Part shown: one piece after another, positions 5,438-60,900 of the stretch
Layout: each line of letters starts with the position of its first letter
Position numbering within the stretch: the first letter of the stretch is position 1
Virus record (IMG/VR): IMGVR_UViG_3300025853_000044
Span: 1-64,000 of that record
Direction: 5' to 3' (one strand)
Origin: a virus
DNA: 64,000 nucleotides
Position numbers and translations under genes: made by a program
Notes under the pieces: generated by a model
What the model saw: only the letters and a program-made list of their open reading frames with translations
What the model was told of the DNA's origin: nothing
The model's database searches: none

Positions 5438-5491
5438 AGGAAGTGAATACCATGACAGAAGCAACACAAACCAAGGAAGTGAATACCATGA
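5438..5491 (+). repeat. Duplicated ribosome-site/start segment
   Basis: AGGAAGTGAATACCATGA occurs at 5438-5455 and again at 5474-5491, 36 nt apart and in the same frame. Each copy carries a purine-rich ribosome site and an ATG, so the following gene has two equivalent starts (5452 and 5488). Confidence 0.85.
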
Positions 5492-7746
5492 GCCAAAAAT
5501 ACGAAGCCCTGCAAGCATACAAAGCACTCAAAGACAACTACGATTGCAGTACCGAGTGGGATGTTCTCTCCACTTGTGCTGTTCACCTTGTACCCACAAG
5601 TGAGGACTTGCCCGACGACACCAACGCTTTCGTTGAACAGACAGTGGTTCATCTCATCAGCATGGTCAAGGAAAAGTTCACCAACGCCTCTTACCCTCTC
5701 TTCGTCCGTGCCTGTCCACTTGTGCCACGACCCGGTGTGCTTGAGTCCAGCCGTGCCGACAGCATCCTTGATGTTGAGGTCGTCGCTCACCGCATCATCA
5801 CCACCATGATGTCGCCCGACACATCCGACGAACCCATGTATGAGCATGGCTTCATTGACCCACACGGCACCGTCATGGTTCAGCCATTCATCAACGCCAC
5901 CGCATCAGCGGTGGCCGCACCCGACAACTACATTCTCATGGGCCGAGACAACGACGGCATCACCGCTGGTAAGGACGGCCTTCAAGTCGCTATCCCAATC
6001 GGTGATGACACACGCACTCGCTATGACTTGGGTAAGTTGGACATGGCTCCCGACAAGGTTGAGATTGAGTTCGTGTCCGAGTTGAAGCATGGCTCCCGAC
6101 CCAAGCGGGAGTTCCTTCGTGATACCCACCAATCATACATGAATCAAAAGGTAGCCATGGTTCAACTGCGTGGCTCCGAGGGTGTGCGTCCCATCTCCCC
6201 ACCTCCGAAGGGTGTCACCATCAGCGGCACCTTCCACGGTGCCGAGCGCATCAACATCAATCACATTCACCTCGTGAGCGACAACACCGACGAGCAACTT
6301 GACCTCATGGAGCAAGCACTTCGTGAGGGTATGCCCGAAGGCTCCGTTGTCCTCCATCCCAACGGCTCTCACCTGTCCCACCATGCAGGGCAGTGCTTCA
6401 AGTATGGTGTTCCTTACATTGCATCCACCGACCCGAAGGTTGGTGAGCAGTGGACTCAAGCCGCCCTCGGTTGGGTGGTGCTTGACAACGACGGCACCTA
6501 CGAGCCTCAACCCTACGACCCAATGGACTTCACTGATGAGTTCATCGCTGGCTTCAATGCTGGCTTCACCAACTTCGCTCGCCAGCATGGTTGGTTATCC
6601 AATCACTTCCACCAGTTCATCGGTGGGCCTATCGGCAACCCTGCTGAGACAGCACACCTCGCTGGTGGTTATGTTGCATGGCTCATCAATGGCACCTTGT
6701 CCGTTGGTCTTGGTGAGTTGCGGCACATCACTGGTAGTGTGCAGAATGCAACCATGCTACCCTTCGTAGCCGTCGCATCCATCTATGGTGTGGACAACTG
6801 GAAGGAGGTTTGGCCAAATGGTATCTCACAGAACCGCCGCCACTTCTACACCATGGTTGAGCAACACCCCGCCACCATTGAGTCGGTCATTGGTCTGCTC
6901 AAGTTCGCTGAGTCCTGCTACAAGTTGGAATGGCAATCGGGATACGGTGGCCACAAGTATGGCGAGTCGTGCAGGAATGCTCGGCAACTTACCGAGTCCA
7001 TGCTCTCCTTCCTTGCTGACCCAACCGAGGCTCACTTCAAGTCTATGATAGGTAAGGCCAACCTCACTGAGCACAATGTTCACAACAATGGTTTCTTCTT
7101 CAACAAGTTCATTTCCAAGACCGCACTTGATTGGGGTACCAATCCCGCCTTGGTTCGCCTTCAACCACGATACTTCTTCTCCATCTACTACGCCGCCGAG
7201 GACTTGATGAACAGCAAGCCCCGATTGGCTGGCGACTTCACAGACATTCTCAACACCGTGGCGAGTATCACCAAGACCGACATGCAGAAGAACCCATTGG
7301 GTAAGCGCAACGATGAACTGGGTCGTGCTGTTGCATACATCGGCAACAACTACCGACATCCAAACGGCATCTACTCCGACTACACTGCGAACACCTTCAT
7401 CCCCTGTGGTCATGTTGGTTGCGAAGTCTGCGCTCAACACACAGCGCACATCGCCAGCACTCTTACCAAGGGCTACTTACCCATCACTGATTCGTATGAG
7501 GCTTCGTTCCCCGTGGACAAGCAAGCCGAGAACAATAACGCATTCAAGATGTTGAGCAAGGAAGATGATGAAACATTCGCTCACCCAACCAAGGTTCCTC
7601 AAGCATTGGCCGTACTGATTCACGGGCTTACACATGGTGGGGTCAAGGATGTGGAGAAGTACATTGCACTCATCGTATCTAAAATGAATAGCGAGCAATT
7701 GATTGAGTTCTCAAATTACAAGAAAGCACTTGAAGGAGATGAATGA
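5452..7746 (+). CDS. Large protein with possible PEP-utiliser-like phosphohistidine domain
   Basis: A 764-residue protein and first gene of unit 3. Around residues 300-325 the segment VLHPNGSHLSHHAGQCFKYG followed by VPYIAS resembles the mobile domain of PEP-utilising enzymes, where a GG-x-TSHAA-x-GIP motif carries the phosphorylated His. Here the Ser-His is kept and Gly-Gly is replaced by Asn-Gly. No ATP-grasp domain or PEP-binding barrel is evident. The rest is unfamiliar; a cluster PCGHVGCEVCAQH near residue 655 could bind metal. The start is uncertain between 5452 and 5488 because the start region is duplicated. It is followed by a tyrosine-phosphatase-like gene, which makes phosphate-transfer chemistry plausible but unproven. 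The codon choice is C-rich, as in the island gene and thermosome, suggesting high expression. Confidence 0.6.
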   Translation: MTEATQTKEVNTMSQKYEALQAYKALKDNYDCSTEWDVLSTCAVHLVPTSEDLPDDTNAFVEQTVVHLISMVKEKFTNASYPLFVRACPLVPRPGVLESSRADSILDVEVVAHRIITTMMSPDTSDEPMYEHGFIDPHGTVMVQPFINATASAVAAPDNYILMGRDNDGITAGKDGLQVAIPIGDDTRTRYDLGKLDMAPDKVEIEFVSELKHGSRPKREFLRDTHQSYMNQKVAMVQLRGSEGVRPISPPPKGVTISGTFHGAERININHIHLVSDNTDEQLDLMEQALREGMPEGSVVLHPNGSHLSHHAGQCFKYGVPYIASTDPKVGEQWTQAALGWVVLDNDGTYEPQPYDPMDFTDEFIAGFNAGFTNFARQHGWLSNHFHQFIGGPIGNPAETAHLAGGYVAWLINGTLSVGLGELRHITGSVQNATMLPFVAVASIYGVDNWKEVWPNGISQNRRHFYTMVEQHPATIESVIGLLKFAESCYKLEWQSGYGGHKYGESCRNARQLTESMLSFLADPTEAHFKSMIGKANLTEHNVHNNGFFFNKFISKTALDWGTNPALVRLQPRYFFSIYYAAEDLMNSKPRLAGDFTDILNTVASITKTDMQKNPLGKRNDELGRAVAYIGNNYRHPNGIYSDYTANTFIPCGHVGCEVCAQHTAHIASTLTKGYLPITDSYEASFPVDKQAENNNAFKMLSKEDDETFAHPTKVPQALAVLIHGLTHGGVKDVEKYIALIVSKMNSEQLIEFSNYKKALEGDE

Positions 7747-7747
7747 T

Positions 7748-8965
7748 ATGGGTAAGAAAGGACGAGCACGACGAGCACAACGACGCAAGGACAAACAGAA
7801 CAAGAAGGAGATGAAGAACATGAGCAAGACACCACACAATTACAAGACGACGACGACCACCACATGGAAGGGCAACAATCTTTCCAAGCACAACTGTCAC
7901 ACAGGGCAGAAGAAAATCTTCACCACCACGGGTGGTGTTGATGTGTATGGTGGAGGCCGCAACCGTGACGGTGGTTGGTGGAAGGCACCCATCGTGGTGG
8001 ACTTAGCCATGGGGCCGGACGAAACCATGAAGCCATTCAACAAGTCTGCTTTGACAGGCGGCACCATCGTACCTGCTGGCTGGTCATGCGACGACCACAC
8101 CGGACGCATTGACCCGCCCAAGTATATCATTGAGTTGGACTTCCCCGACTTCGGCGTACCACAAGTGAACAAGTTGTTTTGGTATGCGCTGTGCGATGAC
8201 ATCCTTGAGCATGGTATCAAGTCCATCTCTACGCAGTGTGCTGGTGGCCATGGTCGCACGGGTGTGCAACTGTGCATCCTCTACTACCTACTCAACGATG
8301 ATGATGTCAAGTCCACCATCACCGATGCGGCTCAACTGATTGAACTCATCCGAGACTTGCACTGCCACCATGCGGTTGAGACTGACGGACAGCAACGCTA
8401 CATTGCGAATGTCCTTGACATCCCTGCTGGTGAGTCCAAGATTGAATCCACCTACGGTGGTTGGGGTGGCGGCTACTCCTATGGTGGTGGTGCTTCGGGA
8501 AAAGCGGGGAAGAAGACACCTACGACAAAGACTACGACTCCTACTGGGACGACCTCGCAGAAGGCTACGACGATTTCTGGCAAGTATGACCTCAATGAAG
8601 AATACAAGTTGCCTCCCCTACCACCGAAGCCTCAATCAAAGGCTCTCGCCTTTGAAGAGTGTGAGTGTTGTGGTGAGACTGATTACAATGTGGACACAGG
8701 GCAGTGTACATCATGTGGGTGGGAAGCACCCGACCCAACTGCTGAACGAATGCTGTGCTACACTTGTGGTAAAACGAAGTTGCCGCATGACTACCTCTCA
8801 CCATCCGACGACACTTGCATCACTTGTCTTGCGGATGAGATGAAGGTGAAGCACACTGACAACGAGGTTCAATGTTCAGTGTGCAAGCGTATGCGATACA
8901 CTGACATGTTCTCCGAGACAACGGATGAAGGATTCATCTGCATGTCATGTGAGGTGAAACAATGA
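7748..8965 (+). CDS. Tyrosine/dual-specificity phosphatase-like protein with C-terminal zinc ribbons
   Basis: A 405-residue protein. The catalytic loop QCAGGHGRTG (Cys near residue 164) fits the C-x5-R signature of the protein tyrosine phosphatase superfamily. FPDFGVP (residues 132-138) fits the WPD loop with its general-acid Asp. A Gly/Tyr-rich then Thr/Lys-rich linker (about 235-285) leads to three Cys pairs sets: CECC...CTSC, CYTC...CITC and CSVC...CMSC, each able to bind zinc. The N-terminus is very basic. The ATG at 7748 is 9 nt after AAGGAG; an alternative ATG at 7820 also follows a good ribosome site (GGAGATGAAGAACATG). Phosphatase plus tandem zinc ribbons is an unusual fusion; the target could be protein, RNA or phospholipid. 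Confidence 0.7.
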   Translation: MGKKGRARRAQRRKDKQNKKEMKNMSKTPHNYKTTTTTTWKGNNLSKHNCHTGQKKIFTTTGGVDVYGGGRNRDGGWWKAPIVVDLAMGPDETMKPFNKSALTGGTIVPAGWSCDDHTGRIDPPKYIIELDFPDFGVPQVNKLFWYALCDDILEHGIKSISTQCAGGHGRTGVQLCILYYLLNDDDVKSTITDAAQLIELIRDLHCHHAVETDGQQRYIANVLDIPAGESKIESTYGGWGGGYSYGGGASGKAGKKTPTTKTTTPTGTTSQKATTISGKYDLNEEYKLPPLPPKPQSKALAFEECECCGETDYNVDTGQCTSCGWEAPDPTAERMLCYTCGKTKLPHDYLSPSDDTCITCLADEMKVKHTDNEVQCSVCKRMRYTDMFSETTDEGFICMSCEVKQ

Positions 8966-9198
8966 CAATGAACGACCACCAAGACAGCGAGCACTTTGCT
9001 TACGACAAGACATGGGAAGAGATTGAAGCCATGCTGGACAGGGCGGAGCGCAAACAGAATCAACACTACACAGCCATGCTGGACGGGCCGAAGAAGAAAC
9101 GCATGTACCACATGAGGAACTACAAAGCATTGGAGGGCGTGGTCAAGGCTCTTCGTTGGGTGCTTGGAGATAAGGACATTGACCATCCATTGGAGTGA
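8962..9198 (+). CDS. Small helical charged protein
   Basis: A 78-residue protein starting MTMNDHQDSEHF, rich in Glu, Lys, His and Met, probably helical. It starts at an ATGA overlap with the phosphatase-like gene and ends just before the SNF2 gene. No family is recognised. Confidence 0.65.
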   Translation: MTMNDHQDSEHFAYDKTWEEIEAMLDRAERKQNQHYTAMLDGPKKKRMYHMRNYKALEGVVKALRWVLGDKDIDHPLE

Positions 9199-9203
9199 GA
9201 CAC

Positions 9204-11774
9204 ATGAACACCACAACAATCCACAGAATGATACGAGTCTTCACGGGCTACGGCAAGCCGGACATCAAGGATGATGTCGGGCCGAACAAAGCCGACTGGC
9301 CTTTCTTCCACAGGGTCGCAAGCCAAGATGATATGCAAGACCACCAACTGCTGGAAGCCGCCGAGCGATTCCACAAGTACCGCAACACACAACTGCCATC
9401 CATCATGCGTGATGCTGGACTCATCAGCAAAGCAAACCAAGTGGAGTCCTACCTTGACAAGATGAAGGTGCGAGGCACCGAGGCTAAGGTTGAGTACGAA
9501 GCACAGCAAGCCATCATCAGTGAACGCAATCGGGCACAAGCGCAAGCAAGGCTGATGGTCACCATGCGACTGAACCACCGTGATGAACCGATTGACGATG
9601 AAACGATTGATGCGTACATGGGTGCGTATGACTGTGAGCGTGATGAAGCCATGTCCCTCATTGAACAACGAGTGGCTGAATGGAAACCACCGGCCAGCAA
9701 GGTCGTGTCCTTCTCCAATGTGGATGACACATGGACAAACCGATGGGGCAAACAATTCACCAGCAAACGAATCGCACTTGACTACACATACAACCCTGAC
9801 CTCAACAACGCACTCAAGAATGCACTCGGCTTCCCTGCTGTCAAGTGGGACGGCAAGAAGAAGAAGTGGACACTGCAAGACGACGCTGATGTTCTCGCCA
9901 AGGCGAAGGACATCATGGTTGAGCAGGGCATGTTCTTCAACGAGTTATCCCTTGAGCGACTTGAGGTATCGGCACCGAAGGAGAAGTCTATAGAACGCAA
10001 GACTACGGAGTTGTCTGCTCGCCTTGTTGGTAAGTCAAGCATTGAGATGGAGTGGCCATACATTGGTGATGAGTTCATCCGTGGTCAGTTGTTGAATGTG
10101 GTCAAGGCTACACAAGGTCGCAAGTTCAACCCAAGCAACAAGACTTGGAGTGTGAGTGTAGGAGAAGCGGCACCACTGATTGACCGCTTGCGTAAGCATG
10201 ATGAGAATGATTGGTGCTTACGCTTAGCCGACGCACTGCAAGCCATACCTGAGATTGAGACTTACATGACTGAGCGTGCGGAGCGTATCGCTATCAGCGG
10301 TGCGGCATCCCTTGACCAAGAGATGATAGTCGCCCAGTTGCAGGAAGATTTGAGCAAGCACTTTCCCGTGGGCCGTGAACTTTATCCGTTCCAATATGTG
10401 GGTGTTCACTTCGCTCAACTCGCTGGTGGGCGTTGCCTCATCGGTGATGACATGGGCGTGGGTAAGACCATCCAAGCCCTTGCACACATCGCACTCAATG
10501 AAGAGCAACTACCCGCACTCGTCGTATGTCCTGCCTCAGTCAAATACAACTGGGCCAAAGAATGCAGGGCGTGGTTGCCTAACATGACCGTTGAGGTATT
10601 GGAAGGTCGCAAGGGTGTGATTCCCGATGCTGACATCATCGTGTGCAACTACGACATCATCAGTGGGCGCAAGGATTCACTGCTTGACTACGGCTTCAAC
10701 ATCGTGGTGTGCGACGAGAGCCACTACTTGAAGAACATCAAGGCGAAGCGTACTGCTTCCACCCTTGAGGTAGCCAGCGAGTCCGAGTCTGTCCTGTGTC
10801 TTTCGGGCACAGCCGTGACCAACCGACCAAGCGAGTTCTTCACCACACTCAACCTCCTTCGTCCCAACGAGTTCCCATCCTTTTTCCCCTACGGCCAACG
10901 CTACTGCGACGGACAGAACAACGGGTGGGGGTGGGACTTCACCGGAGCCAGCAACACCGATGAGTTGCACGCTCGCACACGGGACTTCTGTATTCGTCGC
11001 CTCAAGCAAGAGGTCTTGACTGAACTGCCCGACAAGGTGCGTACCATCATGGACATTCAACCAAGCAGGGCTGACCTCAAACGATACAGCGACCTCCATC
11101 GTTCATGGATGGATGAGTACGAGATGTATCAAAACCGACCTCCTCTACCTGCTGGCTTTGTTCTCAATATGCTCACTGCCTTACGACACGAGTGTGGACT
11201 CATCAAGATTCCATCAACCGTGGCTTACATCAAAGAGCACTACGACATCACGGACGGCAAACCGTTGGTTGTCTTTGCTCACCATACCGATGTATTGAAA
11301 GGCTGTGTTGATGCACTGCGAGCCGACAAAGACCGCAACTGGCGCATCGGTGGTATCACCGGAGACATGCCCGCACAGAAGAGGCAATCCAATGTTGAAG
11401 CATTCCAAGCAGGGCACATTGATGTCCTGTTCTGTTCTACCGTTGCCGCCAAGGAAGGTATCACTCTCACTGCCGCTAACACTGCGGTGTTCGTGGAGCG
11501 TGAGTGGGTGCCCGGATGGGAAGAACAGGCTGAGGACAGGGTGTACCGCATCGGTCAAGAGAGCGATTCAGTCCACGCCGTTTACCTCTCGGTGGCTCGC
11601 ACCATTGACGAGAAGTTCAACCAAGTGATTGAAGAGAAGCGCAAGGTCGTGAAGGCCGTGCTGGATGGCGGCGACCTCAACGAGCGTGAAGGCATCGCCA
11701 ACGCACTGATTCAGTCCATGATTGACAGTGGCGACCTGCCAGCGAACTTTGGAAAGATGAAGGTGAAAGCATGA
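9204..11774 (+). CDS. SNF2-family helicase/translocase with HARP-like repeats
   Basis: An 856-residue protein. Helicase motifs are clear: motif I GDDMGVGKT (about 413-421), motif II DESH (about 502), STVAAKEG in the C-terminal lobe and YRIGQ near residue 782, diagnostic of SNF2 enzymes. Before the ATPase core are two similar segments (about 180-240 and 280-335) with W-x-K-x-x-K-x-W patterns that resemble the HARP domain of SMARCAL1, an annealing helicase that rewinds DNA at stalled forks. The ATG at 9204 follows GGAG with good spacing; an upstream GTG at 9195 is less likely. In this virus it could remodel forks or strip host proteins from DNA. Confidence 0.88.
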   Translation: MNTTTIHRMIRVFTGYGKPDIKDDVGPNKADWPFFHRVASQDDMQDHQLLEAAERFHKYRNTQLPSIMRDAGLISKANQVESYLDKMKVRGTEAKVEYEAQQAIISERNRAQAQARLMVTMRLNHRDEPIDDETIDAYMGAYDCERDEAMSLIEQRVAEWKPPASKVVSFSNVDDTWTNRWGKQFTSKRIALDYTYNPDLNNALKNALGFPAVKWDGKKKKWTLQDDADVLAKAKDIMVEQGMFFNELSLERLEVSAPKEKSIERKTTELSARLVGKSSIEMEWPYIGDEFIRGQLLNVVKATQGRKFNPSNKTWSVSVGEAAPLIDRLRKHDENDWCLRLADALQAIPEIETYMTERAERIAISGAASLDQEMIVAQLQEDLSKHFPVGRELYPFQYVGVHFAQLAGGRCLIGDDMGVGKTIQALAHIALNEEQLPALVVCPASVKYNWAKECRAWLPNMTVEVLEGRKGVIPDADIIVCNYDIISGRKDSLLDYGFNIVVCDESHYLKNIKAKRTASTLEVASESESVLCLSGTAVTNRPSEFFTTLNLLRPNEFPSFFPYGQRYCDGQNNGWGWDFTGASNTDELHARTRDFCIRRLKQEVLTELPDKVRTIMDIQPSRADLKRYSDLHRSWMDEYEMYQNRPPLPAGFVLNMLTALRHECGLIKIPSTVAYIKEHYDITDGKPLVVFAHHTDVLKGCVDALRADKDRNWRIGGITGDMPAQKRQSNVEAFQAGHIDVLFCSTVAAKEGITLTAANTAVFVEREWVPGWEEQAEDRVYRIGQESDSVHAVYLSVARTIDEKFNQVIEEKRKVVKAVLDGGDLNEREGIANALIQSMIDSGDLPANFGKMKVKA

Positions 11775-45602: not shown

Positions 45603-45938
45603 TCAGCAGTTCCATCGCTTCAAGGATGCTCCCTTTGGTGTGAGTTTACCACCTTTACTGGTCGGGCCTTTGACACCCGACATGCGAGCGCAAAACGATT
45701 TACGACGCTTTGCCTTCTTTGAGCCGGGTTTGAGTTTGCTTGGTTTGGTTGTCACGGGAGGTTTGAGGTTTGCACCACTCTTACGCTTGGCGGCGGCACG
45801 ACCTTTAGCGTTCAGTCCACCTTTCTTACTGTGCTTATTTGGGTTATAACCATGAAATGGCTTACTTTTTTTGGCCTTCATTACAGCAAAGGCTAATTCA
45901 GCAGGCGAACAACAATCACAAAAATCGTAATCCATCAC
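45603..45938 (-). CDS. Small basic Cys-containing protein (DUF6321-like)
   Basis: A 111-residue protein. GGLNAKGRAAAKRKSGANLK followed by PPVT, then RRKSFCARMSGVKGP and the C-terminal SLKRWNC match a pattern I recall from marine phage proteins (DUF6321). Lys and Arg make up about a quarter, so it may bind DNA in the virion. It starts inside the end of the giant gene by a 4-nt overlap. Confidence 0.7.
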   Translation of the reverse strand: MMDYDFCDCCSPAELAFAVMKAKKSKPFHGYNPNKHSKKGGLNAKGRAAAKRKSGANLKPPVTTKPSKLKPGSKKAKRRKSFCARMSGVKGPTSKGGKLTPKGASLKRWNC

Positions 45939-48900
45939 GAAGCATCACCACTATGGTCATTTGAATTGTAGGAGACATCTCCTTTATGTCCTTTGGGATG
46001 CAGGGATTGGGAGAAACGAGGCTGGACGGTGTAATCCATGCGCTCTTCCTTGCTCTCGCCCTCTTGATGGGTGCGGCGGCGAGCGGCATCTGCACGGTAG
46101 TGTTGCAGGGTGTTTTCACTCATCACGACACGAGTAATCTCGTTGTCCAATAACGATGAATCAAAGCCCGTGGCGGCGGTGCCGATGATTTTCGGGCCTT
46201 GACTCATTGGCACAGTGTCACTTGTACTGATGTCCATGTAGTATGCGGGCGCATAAGGTGGGTTGGTGTCGGGGTTGGTGCTACGAATGTAGGAGCCTGC
46301 CGATGCTTGACCGTTGGTTGTCTCGTACACATATAGCCCGTACTTACCACCAGCGGTGGCACCGAAGTAGTTGCTACCATACTGTGGGCTTGATGAGTGC
46401 AAGTTGAGGTTGGAGCGGAACATCTCGGCATGTTGTTTGTCCAGTAAACGAACTGGGCGCAACATGTAGGAAATGCGCTTGTCGGTGAGGTTGGTACGCT
46501 GGTGCCCGTTGGTGTCGGTTTGATATGGGTTGCTGGACTTCCATTGTGAAACATTGTTTGTGAATCCGTATTTTTCCGCAAGGTAGCCTTCTACTTGTTG
46601 TCTTTCTGTTGTACTCATAGCCCGATTATACTGAATGATTTCTGCAATTTTACCTTTTAATTCAAACGAACCTACATGGCCGATACCATATGGGTCTTCA
46701 TCAGCCACATACCAAGCACCAGTGCTACTTCCTACACTAACACCTTGTAAAAATAGTTCAAAGTTAGCGTTGCTACCTGCGCCATCTCCACCTGCTATGG
46801 TTCCAGTAACCAATTCTGCTTGATTAACGACTACAGCATTACTTGGGGAGTTTACAACAGTGTAAGTAGTGTCAGCACCACCTCTCCACTGCCACTTGTC
46901 GCTTGAATCCCACCGAATAAACAACGAATGACCAGCACGGGTTACTGGGCTGTTTGCGAATGTTTCCAAAACCCCTTGAGCATTTCCATCGTCGTCATCC
47001 GACCAAGCAACGACAAAGAGTGTTACATCGGTAGTGTTTAAGCGAGCATCAAATGGTGTACTCATAATGTCTGTTCCATCACAATCTACAACTGGCATGT
47101 TGTTCACATTGGATGATGACGCAATATAGACTGGTTGTTTGGATGCAGTAGATTGTGTGAACTCAAAGCCATGCGGCCCGCTGTCTTTCCATGATGTTAC
47201 AGCCGCCCCGTCTGCCAAATCAAGGCTATCGGCTTTGAGCCACAACGCCATGCCGGATGTGGGAATGCCGCCCCATTCAGTATCGTCAATAGGTGATACG
47301 AAGTTGCGGGCTTCTGCAATGTAGGTACCGCCGAGTGGGTTGAAGTTGGAGGTATGGGAGAGTCGCATAGCACCACCCTGCGGCTGGCCGCTGAAGTCAA
47401 GGGCGGTGAGGTCGTAATGGCCAATCGTCTGCGAGCCTGCTTGCATACCACCATGCACGATAACACGCTGGCCTACACCACGGTCGGAGTGTAGGCTGTG
47501 AGCCTCGGTGTTGATGGCAATGAGGTTATCATCCACACCCTCTACATTCTCAGTGTCAAGTCCAATGCGGGGTGCACTGCGGCTTACAGCGTCTTTGTGT
47601 GGAGAGTCACCGCTCACGGTTTCTACACGGTCGCTTACCACGGCTTCCGGCTTGAGCAAGCCGTCTTCTGCGATGTCAAGGCGTGCGCTGATACCACGAG
47701 GCACCTCGTCAGCCTGCAACACATCGTTGCGAGCACGGATGTAGCCGTCGTTCATGTTCGGCTCAGCGGTGTGATGAGACAACACAACACCCGATGCGTG
47801 ATACGGCTCGTCAAGGGCTGTCAACACATCCTCGTTAAAGGCAGTAGGGTATCGCAAACCACGCCCGTGCCCGTCGTCGCCAACACGGTGAGCGTTGGTG
47901 GGGAAGTACACATCCACAAGTTCAGTAGCGTCGTTAGAGTTTACATTGTTAAGCCGTCCAGCAAAGCGTGGTATAGTAAAGCCCGTCGTGACACTGATGT
48001 TGCCCGAAGCATCTATCAACGCTTTCGTATTCATGATTGGGAAGCCACCGTTGTAGATTCTGTCAAACGGTGTTTTGTTGCCGGTGCGGTCATATTCGTA
48101 CACATCACCAGCATCCCACGCAGGGCGAATACCGAAACCACGAACAGGGTGACGGCGTACTTCTTCACCACGGGTGTTACCCCACCAGTCCACCAAATAG
48201 TACGCTACAGCCTCATCCAACTTGTAGATGCCCTTTCCTTCTCCATCTCCCCACCAATCTCGTAGCACGCCGCTTGCGTTGCGTAGTGTGCGTACAGGAC
48301 AACCGAAAGCACGAGCCATACGCATTCCATCACTGTAGCGCACCTGCCATTCGGGTTTATCCACACCGAGCATACCGGAGAAGTTGGTCTGCCGTTCCAT
48401 AATACCGAGTTGAGTGTTGGGGTATGTGCCATTGGAAAGACCGCTACCACCTGCGTATGTCCATGTTTCAGTCTCGCCTTGCACAAGTGGGCCGTGTGGA
48501 TAACCCACGCTGGTGTTTGTCCCAGTTACAGCGGCTTCTCGGAATGCACGCATACCATACAACGACCATTGTGGTTTGTTGTAGGGTTGGCGTAGGCCAA
48601 TACGATAACCGAATGGTCGGGTGCGTGTTTGTACAGGAGTGAATGTGAGCGTGCCATTCGTCACAGACCCACCCGTGGTGGACGCACTCAACTCAAAGGT
48701 CGTAGCGTTGGTGATGGATGAAACCGTGGCACTTCCCGGTATGCCTGTGCCACTTACTCCCATACCGACTACAAGTTTTGCCGTAGAATCCATGGTGATG
48801 GTCGGGTCATTGTTGTAGTCGCATGTTGCATCGGTAAACGCATCGTATGTGGATTTGACCACACCGTTGGTGACAACATACGAACCGTCATCGTCTTGGT

Positions 48901-51900
48901 CAGCCCACACCGGGCCGTCAAAGGTGTATTCTCGTGGGAAGTCCCATGAGGTAGAAACATACCCATACCCGTCAAGTCGGCTGATGAGTGGGCCACCACG
49001 ACTACCACACGGCCAGTAGTGGTTGAGATTGGTTTTGGTTGCGGCATCGGAAGCATCGGCCTGCCCACCCTGTGGGTCAAAGTTACCAGCAATTATCGGA
49101 CTACCAAAGGTGGTGTCAAGTACATCGGCTGTTAGCATACTTCCGATAGCGTGTGCCATTATGGTAGAACCAATTGGTATGGTAGCGACTATTGGTTCAA
49201 TAACAGGCATAACACCAAGTACATGATTGTCAAATACACTACCACCGTCGTCTTGTACCGTGTAAGCGATACCATCAATCATTATTTTTGTTCCACCGAC
49301 AAGTTTTGCAGTTCTGCGAGTTGTGGTGATGAGTTTATTGGGAATATCTACCGATACTACAGTAGATGGCACATTAGTTCCAACTGAGGCGTGAGCAATG
49401 ATTTCGTATGGAGGGGCCGGCGTTTTGCGGTCAAACGCAAACGGGCCGAGGCTGGCGTAGTATGCCGCATCATGGTAGTGTACAGTCTCAAAGTGTTCGG
49501 GCATACTGTTCAATGGTTTTTGGGCAACAGCACGGTCAGTCAACGGGTTGAGCCATGTACGGCTGGAATCCGAGTAGAAGGTGTGTGGTCGGCCAAGGTT
49601 GGGGTGCCATAGACACAGGAAGGCATCGGCCACATGTAGGCTGTTGGTATCTCGGCTACCCTGTAGCATCTGCGGTAAAATGCGTGTCACCATGCTGGTC
49701 TTGGAGTCTGTAAAGATGGCACCAGCAGGGCGGAAGTCGTAGGCACGGGTAAGGCGCAATTTTGTGCCAGCGGTCAGATTGCTGGTGAAAGAAGACTTGG
49801 CTGTGATGGTAAACTGCTTTGGTTTGTTCATGTTGCTTGAATCGTACCCGCTACGCTCAGTGTAAGTGTGTGTGCGTCGTACACCGTTTACATCCGTGTA
49901 TTCCAACTTGTTGCCGTAATACGGTTTCTGTGGGAAGCCACGAGCATCATCAACAGTGATTTGAGTTGTAGAATCAACGCTTACTACAGTACACACAGGA
50001 TTGAGGCTGATGTTTTCAAGCACCTCGTGGTAGATGTCGGGGTAAATGCTTGGATAACCTGCGAGTGTGATTTGACACGCTATGCTTCCTGTGCTTGCAC
50101 GAAGGAACTCGTAGTAGTTGTCAAGTCGGTGATGGTTGAGATGGCGGAACCCTGTAGCGTCAGCGTGGTCGGGGCCGTCTTTATGGACAATACTCCACCA
50201 TGGTATGTTGGTCGTCATACCCGGTGTAGCGTTATCAAACATTTGTGGTTGATATGGAAGTGAACGCTTGACAAAGGCGGGGCTTTCGGTTGCCTGTACA
50301 CCCAATGCGTTGTACAGCATCAACGGTGGGATGTTGGTGAATTGGCTACCGTGGTCGGGGTCATGGTCAAGAATCAACTCATTGACAAACACCTCACAGC
50401 CTCGTACATCGGCCATCGTAGCCTCAGCCAACACAAGACCAACAGCACCCGTGGCACTGTCGGGTTCTCGTAGGCCAATAACCAGTGCAACCTGCTGGCT
50501 GGTCAATTCATTAACCGAACCATCGGGTAGTGCTGTTGCTCCACCATTGGCGTGATAACCCATGAGTTGTGATTTGTGGATGTTAGGTTGAATGACGATT
50601 TGGTATGCTCCCACTTCACTTGGGTCGGGGAAGTGATGACGCAGGGTGTAGGTAGCGGCGGCTTCCAACACGATGGTGTGTCCACCAGCGGCATTGATGA
50701 CACCAGCCTGTCCTTCGGATGCCAGCACACCGTATCCGTCGCTACGAATCTTGGACTCAAACATCAGCGTGAAAGCCCCACCGTGTATGTCGCTTGGCCC
50801 ACTGGGTGTGGCCGTGAGCGCACCGAAAGTATGCAGGGTATCGTAACCGTGTAAATTGTTTGTGAGTGTTGTTGAGATGTCAGTCTTCAAATTGCTCATG
50901 GTTTGCTCTTCCATCAACAAGGTTTCGTGCGGTTTAACCGTAGCAGAACGGATTGCTCGGTGTTTGTTGTACAACCCTTGGTATGCAGGATGAGCGAAAT
51001 GGCCGGGGAGCATGGCCATTGTAGGGTTGACAAAGTGATGCCCCATTCTTGGTAATGCCATTGGTGTCATTTTCGGCCTTGAATAAACCGTATGACACAA
51101 CAAAGCGTTGAGGGTTAATCCTGTGATATAGGTGCTGTGTACAATGTCGGGACTGTTGCCACTCACTTCCGCATGGTCACGCAAGCGGCGTGATGCAAAG
51201 AAGCGAGTGCTACCAGCAGGGATGTAATACGAAGGTACGACCTTGAGCGTTGTGATAGATGACTTGACCAATTCGGCAAAGTCGGCATCACCTACACAAC
51301 CTGTGAAAGTAGAACTGCTGATACCCGTGAACGATGCAACTCCACCTTTATCGGTTGTGGGGTCATACAACCGTAGGAATTTGCGGCCATCACGAATAGA
51401 TTCGTTAAACAGCGAAGCGTTAGGAGCAGTGTTGACAGTGAGAGTGGTGCCGCTAAACGATACAGCCGTCAATTCAGCGTTGACTACACCACCCGCATGT
51501 GTGTAGAAAGTTGGGTGGCGGTGGCTGTGCGTGTTGCCGTTCTTCGTGATGTGGAAGAACAGTGTGCGGTCGTGCAATTCGTAGGATGTTTCAAGTGGTG
51601 CGTTGCCCGTGGCTGTTTCCCATCCTGCGTATGTCGGGTCGGGGAACGAACCTTGGCTGATGTGTTCCCAGTTGTGGTCGCTGAATGTACCACCAAGGCG
51701 TGGCCCCTTTGTATCATCAGTAAACAAATGCTTGATGCTACTGCTTGACATTGGGCGCATCATACCGCCAGTGCCCATGCTTTCGTTTTGGTAGGCTTGC
51801 AGGCGGTCAAATCCAGCACGAATGAGAAGGTTGCCGGGGATGCTATCGGGATGGGGCAGACGCACTTTGAGGTTAGGCTCTACACCACTACCTGCGGTTG

Positions 51901-54900
51901 CAGGCGCAAACCCTTCTGCGCTACGGTCGGACACGGCGTTGAAGGTGCGAATAATCGTACCGAATGGCGAGCCGCCCTCAATGATGTGGATTTGGCCCGT
52001 GTCGTCTTCAACTTGCATCTCTTCAAACTGCAATTCCTCATTGGGGATGGCCAATACATTTCGCAACTCATCGGGATGTGCGGCGGCGATTTGTGGGTGT
52101 GCCAACTCTTGCGCCTGTATGATGGGGAACATGGCACTGTTGGTTGTTTCAAACGAGAATCGGTTGATACCGTACAATTTCTCTCCCATCGTATGCGGTG
52201 TGTTACTCAAGACACGAGTGACAAATGGAACAGCACCAAGACCACGAGCATTGACGGCTGGTAACGATAGATTACCTCCATCCATACGCTTCCACACAAC
52301 ATGCTCAACGGAGAAGTTCTTGGCGGGTGAGCGTTGATTCATCTTGAAAGCGTTGGTGTCGCCAAGCCAGTAGTTGGCATCGTCGCCATATCGGTCAAGT
52401 TCAGCACTGGTACTCGTTTTGAGGTCTGTAATGAGGTTGCGCTCTACACTGGTAGCGTCTTCCAAAAAGAAACTACCGGGGCTTTCATCAAGGTCAAAGA
52501 ATAAATCACCAGTCTTTGCATAGCATGGTTCAGCGTTAAACAGTTCAATATCAGCGGCAAGAGGCGCATTGAACAAAAATGGGTCTGCTGGTATATCATC
52601 AGCAGGTAGAGACAAATTGGTCACAAGAGCCTCAATGTTTGGCCCACCGTGAGCAGGTGCAACGAACCTGTCAACACTGTGGATTCGCTCGTCCCACTGT
52701 GCAGTACCAGCAAAGGTGATGGCTGTAGCGGCGGCTACACCACCAGCAGTTTTGTTGACAACAGCCAACCAATCACCCATAGCAGTCACACCGTCACGGT
52801 CACGCTTTGCTACAAGACCCAATTCACCCTCATACGATATGACAAGGAAGGCACGACCAAAGACACCTTGTGGGTGATGAAGAGCACGAGGCACTGCATC
52901 TGCATCACCGATGTGTACGGGATTAGCGAAGTAGTCCGAGTGTTCCGCATCTGTTTTATCAGTATTATATGCAGGATTTGTATTTGTAGAAGCGTAAGTC
53001 CATGAGTAGGGTGTAGTGAGCATGGTTTCATCGTTATCTGTTCCACTTATTGGCCCACTGGCTTCGGGTGAGTTTCGCATTGGTGCGTAGTGTGGTAAAT
53101 GGCTGTATGTACTCATTACACTTGATGCTGGCCCGTAAGGTGAGAAGCCCAATTTAGCGTGCCATGCACCCAAGCCCGCACCGTACAGGTTCGTGGTGAA
53201 GGTAAGCGTACCGTTTGTCACAGCCCCACCAGTTGTGCTTGCTGATAATTCAAAGGTCGTAGCATTGGTGATTGAAACCACAAACGCACCCGCTGGTATG
53301 CCTGTTCCGCTCACCAGCATGTTTTTCTTGAGTAAAGCAGTTGAGTCCATTGTAATGGTCGTAGCGTTGTTGTAATCACAAGTCGCATCGGTAAATGATG
53401 AAGTTGTAACTTTCAACGAATTAAGGTATGAGTATCGCTCACCCGACCAGCCCATTGCACCTACGGGTCGTGTGCGGTCTATGGCATCCACAAGGCCACT
53501 AAAGTGAGAACGAGTCATGTGGTCACGAGGTGTGTCGTAAGCGTTGTTGTGGTAATGTACGCCCGACTTGCTCCACACATACAATTTAGTTGGAAGGTTT
53601 GGTGGCACAGCCGTGAGGTCAAAGTCGGGCACAGTTATACCCGCACTTTCACACCTATTGTGCCAAGTTGTCATGTCCTCAAACTGTGCTTTACCAGTAA
53701 TTTTGTTTGGTGCCAACCAAAATCGCACAGTCAGCACACCAGCCTTTTCATAAATTTCACGAGAATGATATGGAGCAAATGCAGGACAGGAATTATTTGG
53801 CGCAGTGGACGGGTGGCTTCTTCCACCCGTATCGGTACGAATCCAACCACATGCTGGTATTTGCTCTAAAACATCTCTTGTTGAACCCGCAATTGAACCT
53901 TCAATGTATGATTGTGAACTGCCACCAGTGGTAGCATTTTGATAAGAATTTGATGGGTCACCATAGTCCATTTCAATCCAACCGTAGCGGTCTTGGCGTT
54001 GAGCGTTGCTCATGCTTGGCATAAAGGTACCACCCATGGCTTTGAGTGCGCCCTTGCCGGGATTTTCGTTAATGGCTTGGCCGATGATAGTCGCTAACTC
54101 TTCACCGTTTTGACAGCGTGTGCCATCTACGACAATTATTTCACGGTCAAAGTCTGTCGCTGTTTCACCCAATGAACCAGCAAGCACGCTTTTGGCAATC
54201 ACACCCGACACACGGTAAGCCGTAGGTTGTACAGCGTTTGCAAACAGTTTACTGATTTGCAAGTCGTCCTTTTCCATGGGTGGGTTGAATGCCATTTGGT
54301 TGTCCATCCATGAACCACCGGGGTGGTAGCCACCGTCCATGTGGAAAGTCATGTCAGCACTCATAGCAATGCCGTAGTATGCCATGGCGCAATGTTGGTA
54401 GGGATGTGCTTTCTTGTAATCAGCCTCGTTGTTTGCTACCACTCTACCACTTACGGGATTCATGAAATGCTCACCGTAATGGTAGCCGTGTTCGGGTCGT
54501 TGTTTCAACCCATAACCACTCGCTCCTGTGTCGCCAATGTTTGGTGTCCCTTGTGCTGGCGACCAATTCAATGTTGTTTGCCAGTGGAAACGATTCCGTC
54601 TTGATTGGTAATTAGCATCGGGTGGGCCGTAATCGTTGTCGTTGTTGGTAATCTCGTTGGGTAGGTTCTTGCTGTGAGGTACCTTACTCCATGAGTTTCC
54701 TGTTGTGACAACATATCCGGGGTGAGGCTCTACAACACCGAGGTTGCTTGCTGTTTCATTGAATGGGAAGGCTTGACCGGGGCCGTAGATGAGGTAAGTC
54801 GTGAAATACGGCGTGGCGGTCTTGTGGTCGGTATAGCGTGCCGTTTGATGAGGCATACGCATGATGAGTGGGATTGGACGCTGGCGTACAATTCCCGCAG

Positions 54901-57900
54901 TGTAGCGTGCTGTGACATGCGAAGGTTGACCCGATGCCAAATTGGGTAGAGTTCCACTGTCAATATCGGCAGATAGCACATTGTTTTGATTGTAGGCTGG
55001 TGGGTTGATGCTACCACGATGTTGATTGAGATATGGGGTACCGGGGAAGAAAGCAAGCAGGGCGTTGCAATCCATCAACGCATACGCTGTGCTGATTTCG
55101 TTAGCGTTCTGTATGCCTGCTGTACCAGTCGGGCCGTTGGAGTATGGATGTGTGTAGAATGACGAGTAATCGTTTTGCGAACCGTCGTTGACATCCAACA
55201 CCACACCGCTAAATCCACCACCAAAGTAGAGTGGAACGCTGTGGTCGTTGCTGTCACGCCCGTTCTTGAAGTAAGTAACTGGTTCACTCTCAATGCTTCC
55301 ATACAAACGATAACCGCTGAAATCCTTGTCAGCATGAAGCATCAACAAAACATCGGCCCTATCAGCACTTGCTCCGTACAATGTATTCCATTCTTCGTTG
55401 TAATTTATTGCAACAACTTTCAGTTTGGTTGCAGAATTAGCACCTTGAACAGAAGTCACAGTAGCGAACCTGTTGCTTCCCGACCAAATGACCTTTGCAT
55501 CACCGAAAGAAACCAACTTGGTAAGGCTGTCAAATGTAGCCGCTTCTTCCCCTGCCGGAACAAGTATATGTGTCGTTGTTTCACCGGAATTTGTAGTAAA
55601 AACATCATCACTGTGGGTAAAGTCTGTAGTCACCAAGGCGTTGTCAAGAGCGGGTAAAATGTGGTCGCCGCTACGAGAAGTGTAAGTCAATCCTTTGAGG
55701 TTATTCGCCCAAGTCTTGGTAGGCACAGGGTCGTTATAGGAGTCAACAAGAATGGGTGTGGGTGTGTTGGTGTGATAACCACGGGCTTTTGTGCGAATCT
55801 GTAAGACAGTGTGGGGTAAGTAGCCGCAATCTACTTTGCGGTGATTGTCTTCAATATCAGCATCCGATACAGGTTTGTTGAAAGCCGCCGGTGCCGTGAC
55901 CGTCCATTGACTGTTTGATGACTGGTCAAGTTTTTCGTACTCACCAAATTCAAGATGTGGTGCCTCAATACCCAAGTCTCGGTGCAGTGATGCCTCAAAC
56001 ATTGTGGACAGTGGGCGTGCGCCACGCTGTGGGTTGTGGGCACGGATTCGGATGGCATCAGCGGCCACACCCCACTCTCCAAAGGTACGCCCGTCAACCG
56101 CATACATGTGTCGGCAATCAAACGGAATGCCTTCGGGTGTGTTTGGGTCGGCCATGTTGATAGCCTCGGCAGTGACAGCCGCCATCAACTCATCAGTCAT
56201 CAGCGTTGTCCAATTGATTCGTGGTGAAATAAGTGCTTTGATGATGCGGTCTGTAGATGCGTTAAACATTGACACCGCAGTATTGGTGAGAGAAGTTGCC
56301 GTAAGACCGGTCAATGAGTGAGATGCTGTAAACTCACTTCCTCTCACACCGTAGAATGTGTGAACTCCCGAATCACCAGCACTGTTCAGTTGTGTACGGC
56401 TTTCGTAAGAGATGACATTCCCCACAGTTCCCTTATCCGTTGTACCAGTCATCGGGTCAGTGATTTGAATGACACCGTTTTGACGAGGGAAACCGAGATA
56501 ACCAAGAATGTCGGGGTGGTTGCCAAGTTCTTGCCCGCTATCAAACGGCGCACCAAGTTGTACCGTAAGCGTGGTTGCACTTGCATCCCAAGAAATAGCA
56601 CAATCAATTCCAGCCGAAGGAGCATACACCCCTCGCCATTGATTCCCTCGCCAACTGTTCATCGTGACAGTAGTGACATCCAATCGCCCTGTAGCATCAC
56701 CAAAGCCAAGCATGTGCTGTCCAATGGTAAAACCACCCTTAGCCACATCCCCATCGTTAAAGTAAACGCAAATCTCATCATCAAGTGTAGAGGGTATGGT
56801 TGTCAAATCGTTGGCAAACGCTTCATCCATTTTGCGATAAATGAAACGCACACCGTAACCTTGTCCTCGGTGGTCGTTAAAGCGGAAACCGTACAATGGT
56901 GTGTCTCCTACCGCATCGTCTGTTATTTCAGCAGTGTTTACATGTCCACTGTATGAAGTGATGGCTGTAGGGGATGTGCCCGCTTTGGGTAAGCCTTCGT
57001 TGTACAACTTGTCAAACTCGTCATCACCCTTGCGCCCAAGCCCATGCTTACCAGCGATAGGTGAAAATCCCGGTACCCCCGACGCTACAAGCCCACCGAA
57101 GTTGATACGACCAGTTGCTTGTTTGCCCATTCGCAATCCCTTAACCAACGCAGTGGACGGGCTTTGTGTTTCAAACGATTCGTCGTTTACGCTGTTATGT
57201 GCGATACCACCAAGATGAGCGGAAATGTTTCGTCCCTTGGGGTTAGCCGTTTCATTACGGCGTGGGGTAATATCGTGATTACTGGTGAAAGCCTCATCCG
57301 GTTCTTCTTGTGCTACGAACTCACGCAAAGTAGAGACTGGTGCAAATGGCCTTCCATCCTTGTTAAGCGGCATAGGGGCAGGGTGCATGTTTTCACTCAG
57401 TATTTCATCGGGTTGTGCCCAAAAATTGCGGAAACGACCACCATGACCGATGAGGAATTGCGGTTGATAGGAAGATTGCCCTTTGCTGTTGTCAAGCCAC
57501 ACACAGAAGTTGCGACCCGATGCACCGGGAATAGTAGAGTGAATAACAATGCTATAGCCCTCGTTGCCGTTGATGTCTTCAACAACCCGACCCATGTGCG
57601 CCCGAACATAACCCATGTGTGAACCACGGTCATGTGAGTCAAAGGCGATGTCTCCATACCAAAAGGGAGCAGGGTCATAGGTAGAGCCTGTAGCCGCAAA
57701 ATCAGCGTTGATGTGAGCGGAGGTTGGGTCTTTGTTCGGGTCTGCTGTGTCTTGTCGCACACCAATACGAGTGAGGTCAAGCCGCTCACTTTCACCGGGG
57801 TATTGTTGTGATGGACGACGAGCATGTGTGCGACCGTTAAGCGCACCCCCTTGATTGATGAGGCGCACCATTTCTCGTGCCGCCGCCTCAATATCCGTGA

Positions 57901-60900
57901 CACCTTCCTTCACACCAACTTCACCCAAATCAAGTGTCATGCGGCGTACAAAGTCCATCTGTGTCCAATGTTTGAGGTGTTGCAAGCGAGACTCTTCATG
58001 GCTGGCAAGTTCAAGTGTAGTGTTTCTTTTCCCCTTCAAACAAAGGAATGCTGAGATAACACGAGTACCATCGGGTGTGTCAAAGAGCGTGCTTGCATCT
58101 TTCAAAGAGTGCGTAGCGGGGTTTTGAGTTGCACGGTGTAATTTTAGTTCACGCAACAACAAATCTCCTTCTTTTGCTTTGCGAATCAACTTGTGAATTT
58201 CATTTGCGTAATACACTGATGCCACAGCAGGTTGTACACGAGGAAGCACGCTATCACCCACAGTATGTGTGTTCCCTGTTTCTTCGTGATATAATCCAGT
58301 ATGTACAAAGTGTCCGTGTCCCTTACCTCGCAACAACGGATTGTTCCCAAGGCTACTTGGGTCTTGTAGGGTGTATTTGGTATCGGAGCCGGGTGTGCCG
58401 TCCACGAGGTCTTGTGATGCTGTATTGGGCACATTGTGTGCGTAGGCACTCTCAATGAATTTTGATTGTTGCGTAGAGCGCACATACTTGTTCTCCGATG
58501 GGAACCCATTGGCTACATCTATCTGCGTAGTGAAGTAATGGGGAGCACCGCCGTTGACACTGATAAGATGCTTGTCAAGTTTGATGGTGCCACCTTCGTA
58601 TGCGATGTTGCGAGTAAAACCAATTGTTGGTGTATCGGCACTGGATTGCACTTGCATGTGAAGGTCGTGAAAGGCAATGAACTCACGGTCATGTCCCACA
58701 TCAAACAAAAGGACACGAGCATTACCGTCAGTAGAAAGGTATGGGTCAATGTAGGCCACGGTGGGAGCCTGCGTTGCGTCCAGCCCCATAGCCTCGTAAT
58801 TCATCTCCACTGTCTTGTTTACATGCTGAGCAAAGTTTTGCGCTGTTTCAAGACACGAGTTGCCAATCAAGAAGTTTTCAAGCGGAATAGAATCTCTTGG
58901 ACGATTTGCCAGTGCCCCTTCGCCACCGTTAAATCCACTCCAAACAAAAGCCTCATTCATTACACCTCTACTTTTGGCGAACAACCCTTCCACAGCATGT
59001 GGATTATTGATGGTCATGTTCATCCAAACGGTATCTCCATCTCGTAGTCCACCTTGAGCGAATGGATAGACCCAACTTCGGTTGAGAATGGCATCAGCGT
59101 CATTCTGCACAACGGTGCCTACACCTATACGCACATCGTCGCCATTTGCTACAGCAACAGCATTTGCGGCCACAAGCGTGACAACTGTGTGTGCCCCGCT
59201 TGTCAAATTGGACTTTACATCTGCAACTTCACCCACATATTTTATGACATTGCTTGAATCTTCAAGGAATAACAAATCACCAGTACGAATGTTCGTACCG
59301 ATGGTGTTAGCATGAGCAAAGCGATTATTTCCGTTTGTGATGTTTAGCGTTGTGGATGCACCTGCTGATGTGGCACCTACAAATGTCCACTGCTCGGCTG
59401 ATGTAGATGGATGGAAAGTAGCCGTTTGCAACTCTTGGTTTTGCATGTTTGCGGGATTCACTATGGATTGGAAGGCGTTTCCTGCTTTTACAAGTTTAAA
59501 CTCAGCCCCAACGAAGTCTCCAACAGTCAGCGAAACATTTTTTGGTGTTGTTACCAATACAGAATTTGCACCTGCTATTGAATCCAACTTGCCTAAATAG
59601 TACACTTCAAGCGGAGTGTCTGTGCCAATTTCAGCAATGTAGGTTAAATCGCCTTGTTCAGCGATGCTGTTATTATTGCTGTCCCTTGAGTATGGAACAT
59701 CGGGAAAAAGTGAAGCATCATCAAGAATGATGTTGAATTGAAAGCCATCGGTTGCATTACCACTTATTTCTTGTACTTGCATGATGGTTGATTTTGCTCG
59801 TTTTGATATGGTGCGAGGTGCGTGTGGGTTGGCCAATGGGCCAGCCTTGAACTCCACGGCTGAAACATACTGGCGCAGGCCGTAATCAAGGTTCCCACCT
59901 TGCGTTTTCATGTTTGCCGCATCGTAATAAAATGGTGAGCGGCCTTCCAAATCCGACGATGGTAACTCAGCATCGGAGTCAATCGGCATGAGCGTTTCAT
60001 TTCGGAAGCCGCCACCTGTATGGATTTTTGCCCCAACAATGGCGTTTTGGAAGAATGTCTCGGAATACCCATCAAAATAACCTCCTGTAGCATTGATTGG
60101 AATTGACAAAAACCCATCCAACGCTGGATTATTGTCATACACAGCCCATTCTCCGCTGGTGAGAAATACCCTGCGTAGGCGGTTAATCCCCTTGAGATTA
60201 CCCACATCATCAGCCGCTACAATTGTAGGCGTAGCATCGGAAGAGTTTGTGGCATCGGGGAACATGTTTGGATGAGATACAAAAATGTGGAAGTGGTTGG
60301 TGTAAGTCGTGCCTCCTGTGCCTGTGCCTGTGCTTGTGTGTTTGTGGCTTGCAGTAGCATCTTCAATACGAAGAATGGTAGCCGACTCAATGTAATTTTG
60401 ATTATTGATAGTGTACGAATACGCTGATTTTGCGCTCTTATCCGCTGTGGCAACATCGTTTGCTCTTCTACCCACTGGTGTTGGGTTCCATGTGTGAGCG
60501 GTGTAGGTAGCATCTACATGCACTTTCATGCTGTTATCGGGGCCGGGGAAAATACCAAGGTCGGTGTGGTCAAAGAATTGCTGAGGAAATATCGGTATCT
60601 CAACCATGGCACGGGTACTGGCATATTGAGTGCCCAACTGATAGTCGTGCGTTACATCGTCAAGCGATTGGAACAAGCGGTCATTGACGGTGCTACCGTC
60701 CTGTGTCAATGAGTCGTTGTCAAAGTCTCCATCGTTGAAGATGTAAACCGAGGTCAAATAAGTGCCTGCTGAGCCTTGACTGATGATACCTGTGGCGTTA
60801 CACCACTCGTGGAAAGTCGCATACGCCGTACCTGCACCATCCAAAAATGTTCTACTGGCCACTGCATTGCTTTCACTGAAATAGAATCCTGCGCCCGTTT

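Follow-up and report, generated by a model that had tools for sequence, protein, structure and literature searches.

What does a virus do with a tyrosine-phosphatase-like protein that carries a string of putative zinc ribbons, and does this protein act alone? The question is raised by a 64,000-nt stretch of viral DNA (hereafter, the window), which corresponds to positions 1-64,000 of the 95,367-bp IMG/VR virus record IMGVR_UViG_3300025853_000044. The phosphatase gene, for which homologues were found, occupies positions 7748-8965 (+) and encodes 405 aa between an ATG at 7748 and a stop codon at 8963-8965; an alternative in-frame ATG is present at 7739.

Source virus

The virus carrying this gene looks archaeal and appears to be a marine, magrovirus-like virus. 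Besides a PolB whose nearest relatives are from haloviruses, the record encodes a thermosome (E 4e-100 against solved thermosomes) and an RFC small subunit of archaeal type, a gene set that agrees with published descriptions of magroviruses (PMC10768690, PMC12999244). It also displays features described for the Magrovirales, namely a size of ~90-110 kb, PolB, a clamp loader and a chaperonin (compare PMC10768690). Among 40 phosphatase-bearing contigs, PolB and the chaperonin family were each found in 37, while PolA was found in 1. On account of this genome content, both in the record and across the phosphatase contigs, the host is likely to be archaeal, in keeping with the archaeal-virus setting assumed in the initial annotation. 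The window additionally contains a single ORF of 5,999 aa (45935-63934, -), which returned a weak lectin-like (Laminin_G_3) match toward its C-terminal end only.

The phosphatase domain

Alignments revealed a basic Lys/Arg-rich N-terminal tail (residues 1-48, 7748-7892), present mainly in the near clade, followed by a PTP/DSP domain (residues 50-228, 7895-8431) that was delimited by profile, alignment and model and that includes an N-terminal CHTG...GGGRNR segment. Within this domain lie the acid loop FPDFGVP (8141-8161), with D134 as the candidate general acid, and the P-loop QCAGGHGRTG (8234-8263), with C164 as the putative nucleophile, R170 as the second catalytic residue and a Thr immediately thereafter (C164-X5-R170-T171). 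This CX5R-Thr arrangement is kept in 50/50 homologues, as are the GGHG, R and TGV of the P-loop and the acid-loop Asp, and the whole P-loop is unchanged in six full-length homologues of ~40% identity. The N-terminal CHTG...VYAGG segment, which falls within the modelled domain, is conserved almost as strongly as the P-loop.

As a single sequence, the window protein stayed below the Pfam cut-off (PTP-SAK, PF22784: 14.2 bits, cut-off 27; weak matches in 5/6 relatives); however, the assignment became firm once homologues were included. Four of six family members matched Pfam Y_phosphatase (best E 1.9e-4), and the phosphatase profile retrieved RPTP chains from the PDB (E 2.4e-5 to 1.5e-6), with RPTP-alpha as the best match at 1.5e-6. 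An AlphaFold2 model from four sequences was poor (pLDDT 44); hence, we used a 14-sequence alignment instead, which returned a phosphatase core of pLDDT ~90 in which both the P-loop and the acid loop are intact. Foldseek matched this model to VHZ, Tk-PTP (Thermococcus), SsoPTP (Sulfolobus) and VH1 (best E 1.2e-5), and VIA structure comparison with PTP/DSP phosphatases gave Z 11.4-12.8; these matches are informative for residues 46-238 only, and no fold match is claimed for the ribbons. The window protein is a Cys-based phosphatase-fold protein of the PTP/DSP superfamily with predicted activity, confirming the tyrosine-phosphatase-like domain that had been proposed from the sequence. Two giant-virus NADAR proteins, A0A481Z467 and A0A481YXL4, one of which is annotated with a tyrosine phosphatase, were returned as structural matches from BFVD. 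Two pattern scans of GTDB genomes, using short patterns by which distant relatives could be missed, found no cellular relatives.

Tk-PTP, SsoPTP, VH1 and VHZ share the fold and the catalytic residues of the window phosphatase, but they differ from it in the N-terminal segment; we know of neither a zinc tail nor a dikinase-like partner in any of these archaeal, viral and human DSPs. The mere presence of a phosphatase would not be a novelty in archaeal viruses, since dual-specificity phosphatases have already been reported in the archaeal tailed viruses HGTV-1 and Mincapvirus (PMC8651126). Those reports, the PTP/DSP fold and the presence of protein phosphatases from archaea and viruses among the closest structural matches are all consistent with the role suggested by the initial annotation, that of a protein phosphatase acting on its own in host takeover, which would dephosphorylate host Tyr, Ser or Thr sites and be steered to host RNA polymerase or ribosomes by its ribbons. 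We consider this role unlikely in view of the genomic context described below.

The zinc-ribbon tail

The Gly/Thr-rich linker and the six Cys pairs of the initial annotation are present as described. The linker covers residues 233-302 (8444-8653) and was modelled with low confidence (pLDDT <50), and the CxxC pairs begin at residues 305, 320, 337, 357, 376 and 398; composition shuffles gave a mean of 0.85 CxxC pairs and reached six in 1/20,000. The pairs are arranged as ribbon 1 (C305/C308/C320/C323, 8660-8716), ribbon 2 (C337/C340/C357/C360, 8756-8827) and ribbon 3 (C376/C379/C398/C401, 8873-8950), the tail as a whole (residues 301-405) was modelled at pLDDT 70-93, and it probably binds zinc.

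All 12 ribbon Cys are invariant in the near clade (six full-length homologues, ~40% identical), and they are almost invariant in the 14-sequence alignment, where some members possess a fourth ribbon. Across 37 homologues, the ribbon count varies from none in some members to four: the four Cys of ribbon 1 are present in 31/37, ribbon 2 is complete in 22/37 and ribbon 3 in 17/37, which makes the tail a partly lineage-specific feature. The proposal of three zinc ribbons therefore holds in that the Cys pairs are conserved in homologues, but the triple layout is a property of only part of the family. The number of CxxC pairs in phosphatase relatives ranges from 0 to 8, and homologues from bacteriophages are devoid of such a tail. 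Ribbon 1 of the window protein is weakly eL37-like (E 0.001 to 0.005); membership of the eL37 family was rejected, as Pfam PF01907 returned 19.5 bits (cut-off 27.6) and matched only one of six family members.

Among eukaryotic proteins, YVH1/DUSP12 parallels this combination of a PTP domain and a zinc tail in layout, a DSP domain being followed there by a C-terminal Cys-rich zinc domain (PMC9404827). The Yvh1 phosphatase domain scored Z 11.5 against the window model, with structure matches mainly in residues 46-238. In yeast, the Mrt4-release function of Yvh1 maps to the zinc domain and not to the phosphatase (PMC9404827), and this precedent, the equal layout and the weak eL37 resemblance of ribbon 1 would suit a viral protein whose tail is the working part, remodelling ribosomes or ribonucleoproteins, with catalysis being secondary. 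Such a division of labour strikes us as quite improbable: the viral family keeps its catalytic residues (invariant in 50/50) whereas its ribbons range from none to four, and the bacteriophage homologues lack the tail altogether.

Coupling to an upstream partner gene

Immediately upstream of the phosphatase, positions 5488-7746 (+) encode a 752-aa protein (alternative GTG start at 5443) in which alignments and profile comparisons distinguished a dikinase-like N-terminal half and an HNNG domain. Across contigs, this partner is usually 750-870 aa in length. It was also found in 51 of 54 distinct phosphatase contigs, and in 50 of these 51, it lies directly upstream of the phosphatase within ~70 nt, mostly with a 4-nt overlap; the sole exception is L085, with a gap of 1,850 nt. 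The three contigs without the partner are L062, where the phosphatase is located at the contig edge, and L088 and L089, where an HNNG protein overlaps the phosphatase in place of the fused partner. Among 21 thermosome-bearing contigs (at least 43 kb, obtained from a thermosome search and including several fragments, which makes absence soft), both genes were found in 9 and neither in 12, but never one alone. The linkage between phosphatase and partner, which the initial annotation had not picked up, is near-strict, although gene coupling alone is not proof of a common substrate.

A stand-alone phosphatase for host takeover does not predict this linkage, nor the bacteriophage equivalent described below, and the linkage is retained in family members that have lost ribbons 2 and 3, as is often the case.

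Several further observations concern the surroundings of the pair. Neither gene was seen in L104 (G042) or L128 (G043), whose thermosomes are 100% identical to that of the window; these contigs may be fragments that end short of the module, or its presence may vary. In a distant relative, the partner (L016:1524-5648) is 1,374 aa in length, with an extensive additional N-terminal region, and it still adjoins the phosphatase. The module is adjoined by a SNF2-type helicase gene (9195-11774, +); a functional tie between this helicase and the phosphatase was dropped because the helicase lies downstream of the phosphatase in one arrangement (window, L007) and upstream of the partner in another (L005, L006).

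Identity of the partner

The N-terminal half of the partner contains the putative swivelling motif GSxxSHxxxxxRxxxxPYI, the His of which (His298, 6379-6381) is invariant in 42/42 sequences and aligns with the phosphohistidine of PEP-utilising enzymes. When this half was compared with cellular and phage dikinases using hhalign, the PEP synthase phosphohistidine was aligned at E=4e-5, against E 0.12 or worse for the controls (one reversed, five shuffled). The alignment comprised the swivelling part alone, with a best probability of 70%, and the full-length partner profile reached 2% probability against phage PPDKs, though the His motif was aligned. Five candidate ATP-site residues (K4, R74, E194, Q226 and R228), each present in 42/42, were matched by eye, on order and local spacing, to the invariant K26, R95, E329, Q341 and R343 of phage PPDK; ATP is bound by their counterparts in Clostridium symbiosum PPDK.

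Pfam PF00391 returned weak matches in 6/33 partner relatives (best E=0.0084) and nothing in the window's own record, and the window's own partner had no PEP-utilising match in Pfam. No Pfam match to the PPDK_N ATP-binding domain was found. For the PEP/pyruvate-binding C-terminal barrel, there was no Pfam match in the partner, the C-terminal half of which matches the HNNG protein instead. The partner is reminiscent of PPDK and PpsA in its putative swivelling-histidine motif and in its invariant candidate ATP-site residues, but it differs from them in that an HNNG domain replaces the PEP/pyruvate barrel and in that it falls below Pfam cut-offs. On the basis of these sequence comparisons, the partner is probably dikinase-like.

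A split counterpart in bacteriophages

Searches by tblastn converged on the same phage isolates, whether the query was the phosphatase or E. coli PpsA. Vibrio phages V-YDF132, PG28, VH2_2019 and KarBoss and Rhodobacter phage RcZahn share a cluster with the order PPDK-like gene, small ORFs, PTP1, ~330-aa HNNG protein and PTP2, and the published table for Stenotrophomonas phage DLP3 lists an equal gene order (PMC7326821). In the archaeal-virus partner, the C-terminal half is a homologue of the HNNG protein (hhalign E=6e-10; single-model hmmsearch E 5e-6), which is free-standing in Vibrio, Stenotrophomonas, Rhizobium and Rhodobacter phages and has no Pfam match. The two have in common the motifs E-x-R-H, YGG and HNNGxxFNK, which define the HNNG domain of the window's partner (6700-7110, +). 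As its C-terminal half is homologous to this free-standing protein and its N-terminal half is dikinase-like, the archaeal-virus partner appears to join in one chain what bacteriophages encode as two proteins.

PTP2, encoded by siphophages of Vibrio, Rhodobacter, Stenotrophomonas and Rhizobium, is a homologue of the window phosphatase across the phosphatase domain (E=6e-18). It shares with it a GGHGRTG...YCxxAVExxxQ signature and a position right after the HNNG protein, but it lacks the zinc tail, its HNNG and PPDK-like companions are encoded by separate genes and its hosts are bacterial. Among 50,697 phage records, the HNNG protein was found in 40, and 39 of those 40 carry a PPDK-like gene; PTP2 was detected in 15 records, all with the HNNG protein, which amounts to only 15/40 of the HNNG records. 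A CsrA-like domain (E 1.7e-7) is encoded between the PPDK-like gene and PTP1 of a vibriophage (L092:5649-6125).

Annotations of siphophage PTP2 vary (hypothetical, tyrosine phosphatase or 'thymidylate synthase'). The last of these labels is attached to PTP-fold phosphatases in phrog_17568, MT110073.1 (90813-91343) and MG189906.1 (90360-90782). We regard the PHROG label as a mislabel, given that PMC7326821 lists a PTP domain for DLP3 gp141, and it has probably been propagated in PHROGs and GenBank; the 'thymidylate synthase' annotation of this homologous phosphatase family should be questioned in both.

Vibriophage genes annotated as PPDK have been termed auxiliary metabolic genes (PMC9229204), from which one might suppose that the dikinase-like protein feeds glycolysis or gluconeogenesis. 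This supposition is very hard to sustain: the phage enzymes match PPDK_N and PEP-utilizers domains only, the PEP/pyruvate-binding barrel being absent in Pfam searches, and the archaeal-virus partner has its HNNG domain where that barrel would stand. The absence of the PEP/pyruvate domain calls into question the annotation of phage 'PPDK' as a glycolysis gene. Vibriophage PPDK genes, L092:3586-5649 and L095:3025-5229 among them, show no such barrel and co-occur with the HNNG protein.

The phage cluster adjoins nucleotide and replication genes, and further Foldseek matches of the window phosphatase include the Baculovirus RNA 5'-phosphatase, the human capping-enzyme phosphatase domain and PIR1. 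Both observations would accord with phosphate processing on nucleic acids or nucleotides (end healing, cap-like trimming or base modification), with the partner phosphorylating, the phosphatase trimming and the ribbons binding. We nevertheless view such processing as rather unlikely, as the RNA-phosphatase matches are not better than those to protein phosphatases, the neighbouring genes may merely mark an early gene region and none of the module's proteins was identified as a base-modifying enzyme.

Proposed role of the module

Our preferred reading, which we put at somewhat less than an even chance, is that phosphatase and partner constitute a viral phosphate-transfer/phosphatase module to which zinc ribbons were added in magrovirus-like viruses. 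The ATP site of the partner would charge the swivelling His298, and the phosphate on His298 would pass to an acceptor that the fused HNNG domain holds, and it would be stripped from that acceptor or from its product by the phosphatase. The pair may in this way set a reversible phosphorylation or drive a phosphorylate-then-hydrolyse step. The one to four ribbons that most phosphatases of the magrovirus-like lineage bear on a flexible linker would probably act as a tether to nucleic acid or ribonucleoprotein. That both proteins are catalytically active and act on a common substrate, and that the ribbons bind zinc and serve as a tether, is what we infer from the domains and their arrangement.

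A broader form of this idea, possible but distinctly speculative, is that archaeal and bacterial tailed viruses have in common a three-part phosphorelay that writes and erases a phosphate mark during infection. It would consist of a minimal dikinase that uses a swivelling histidine to phosphorylate a non-pyruvate acceptor, an HNNG domain serving as acceptor or as substrate, and a dedicated PTP-fold eraser, which in magrovirus-like viruses would be aimed by the ribbons. We found no description of a three-part PPDK-like/HNNG/phosphatase module in open-licence papers. The archaeal viruses are uncultured; however, the split form is present in cultivable Vibrio and Rhodobacter phages, and the function is therefore testable at the bench. 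The retention of the module in both archaeal and bacterial tailed viruses, fused in the former and split in the latter, is a strong hint at a common, as yet unnamed, task during infection.
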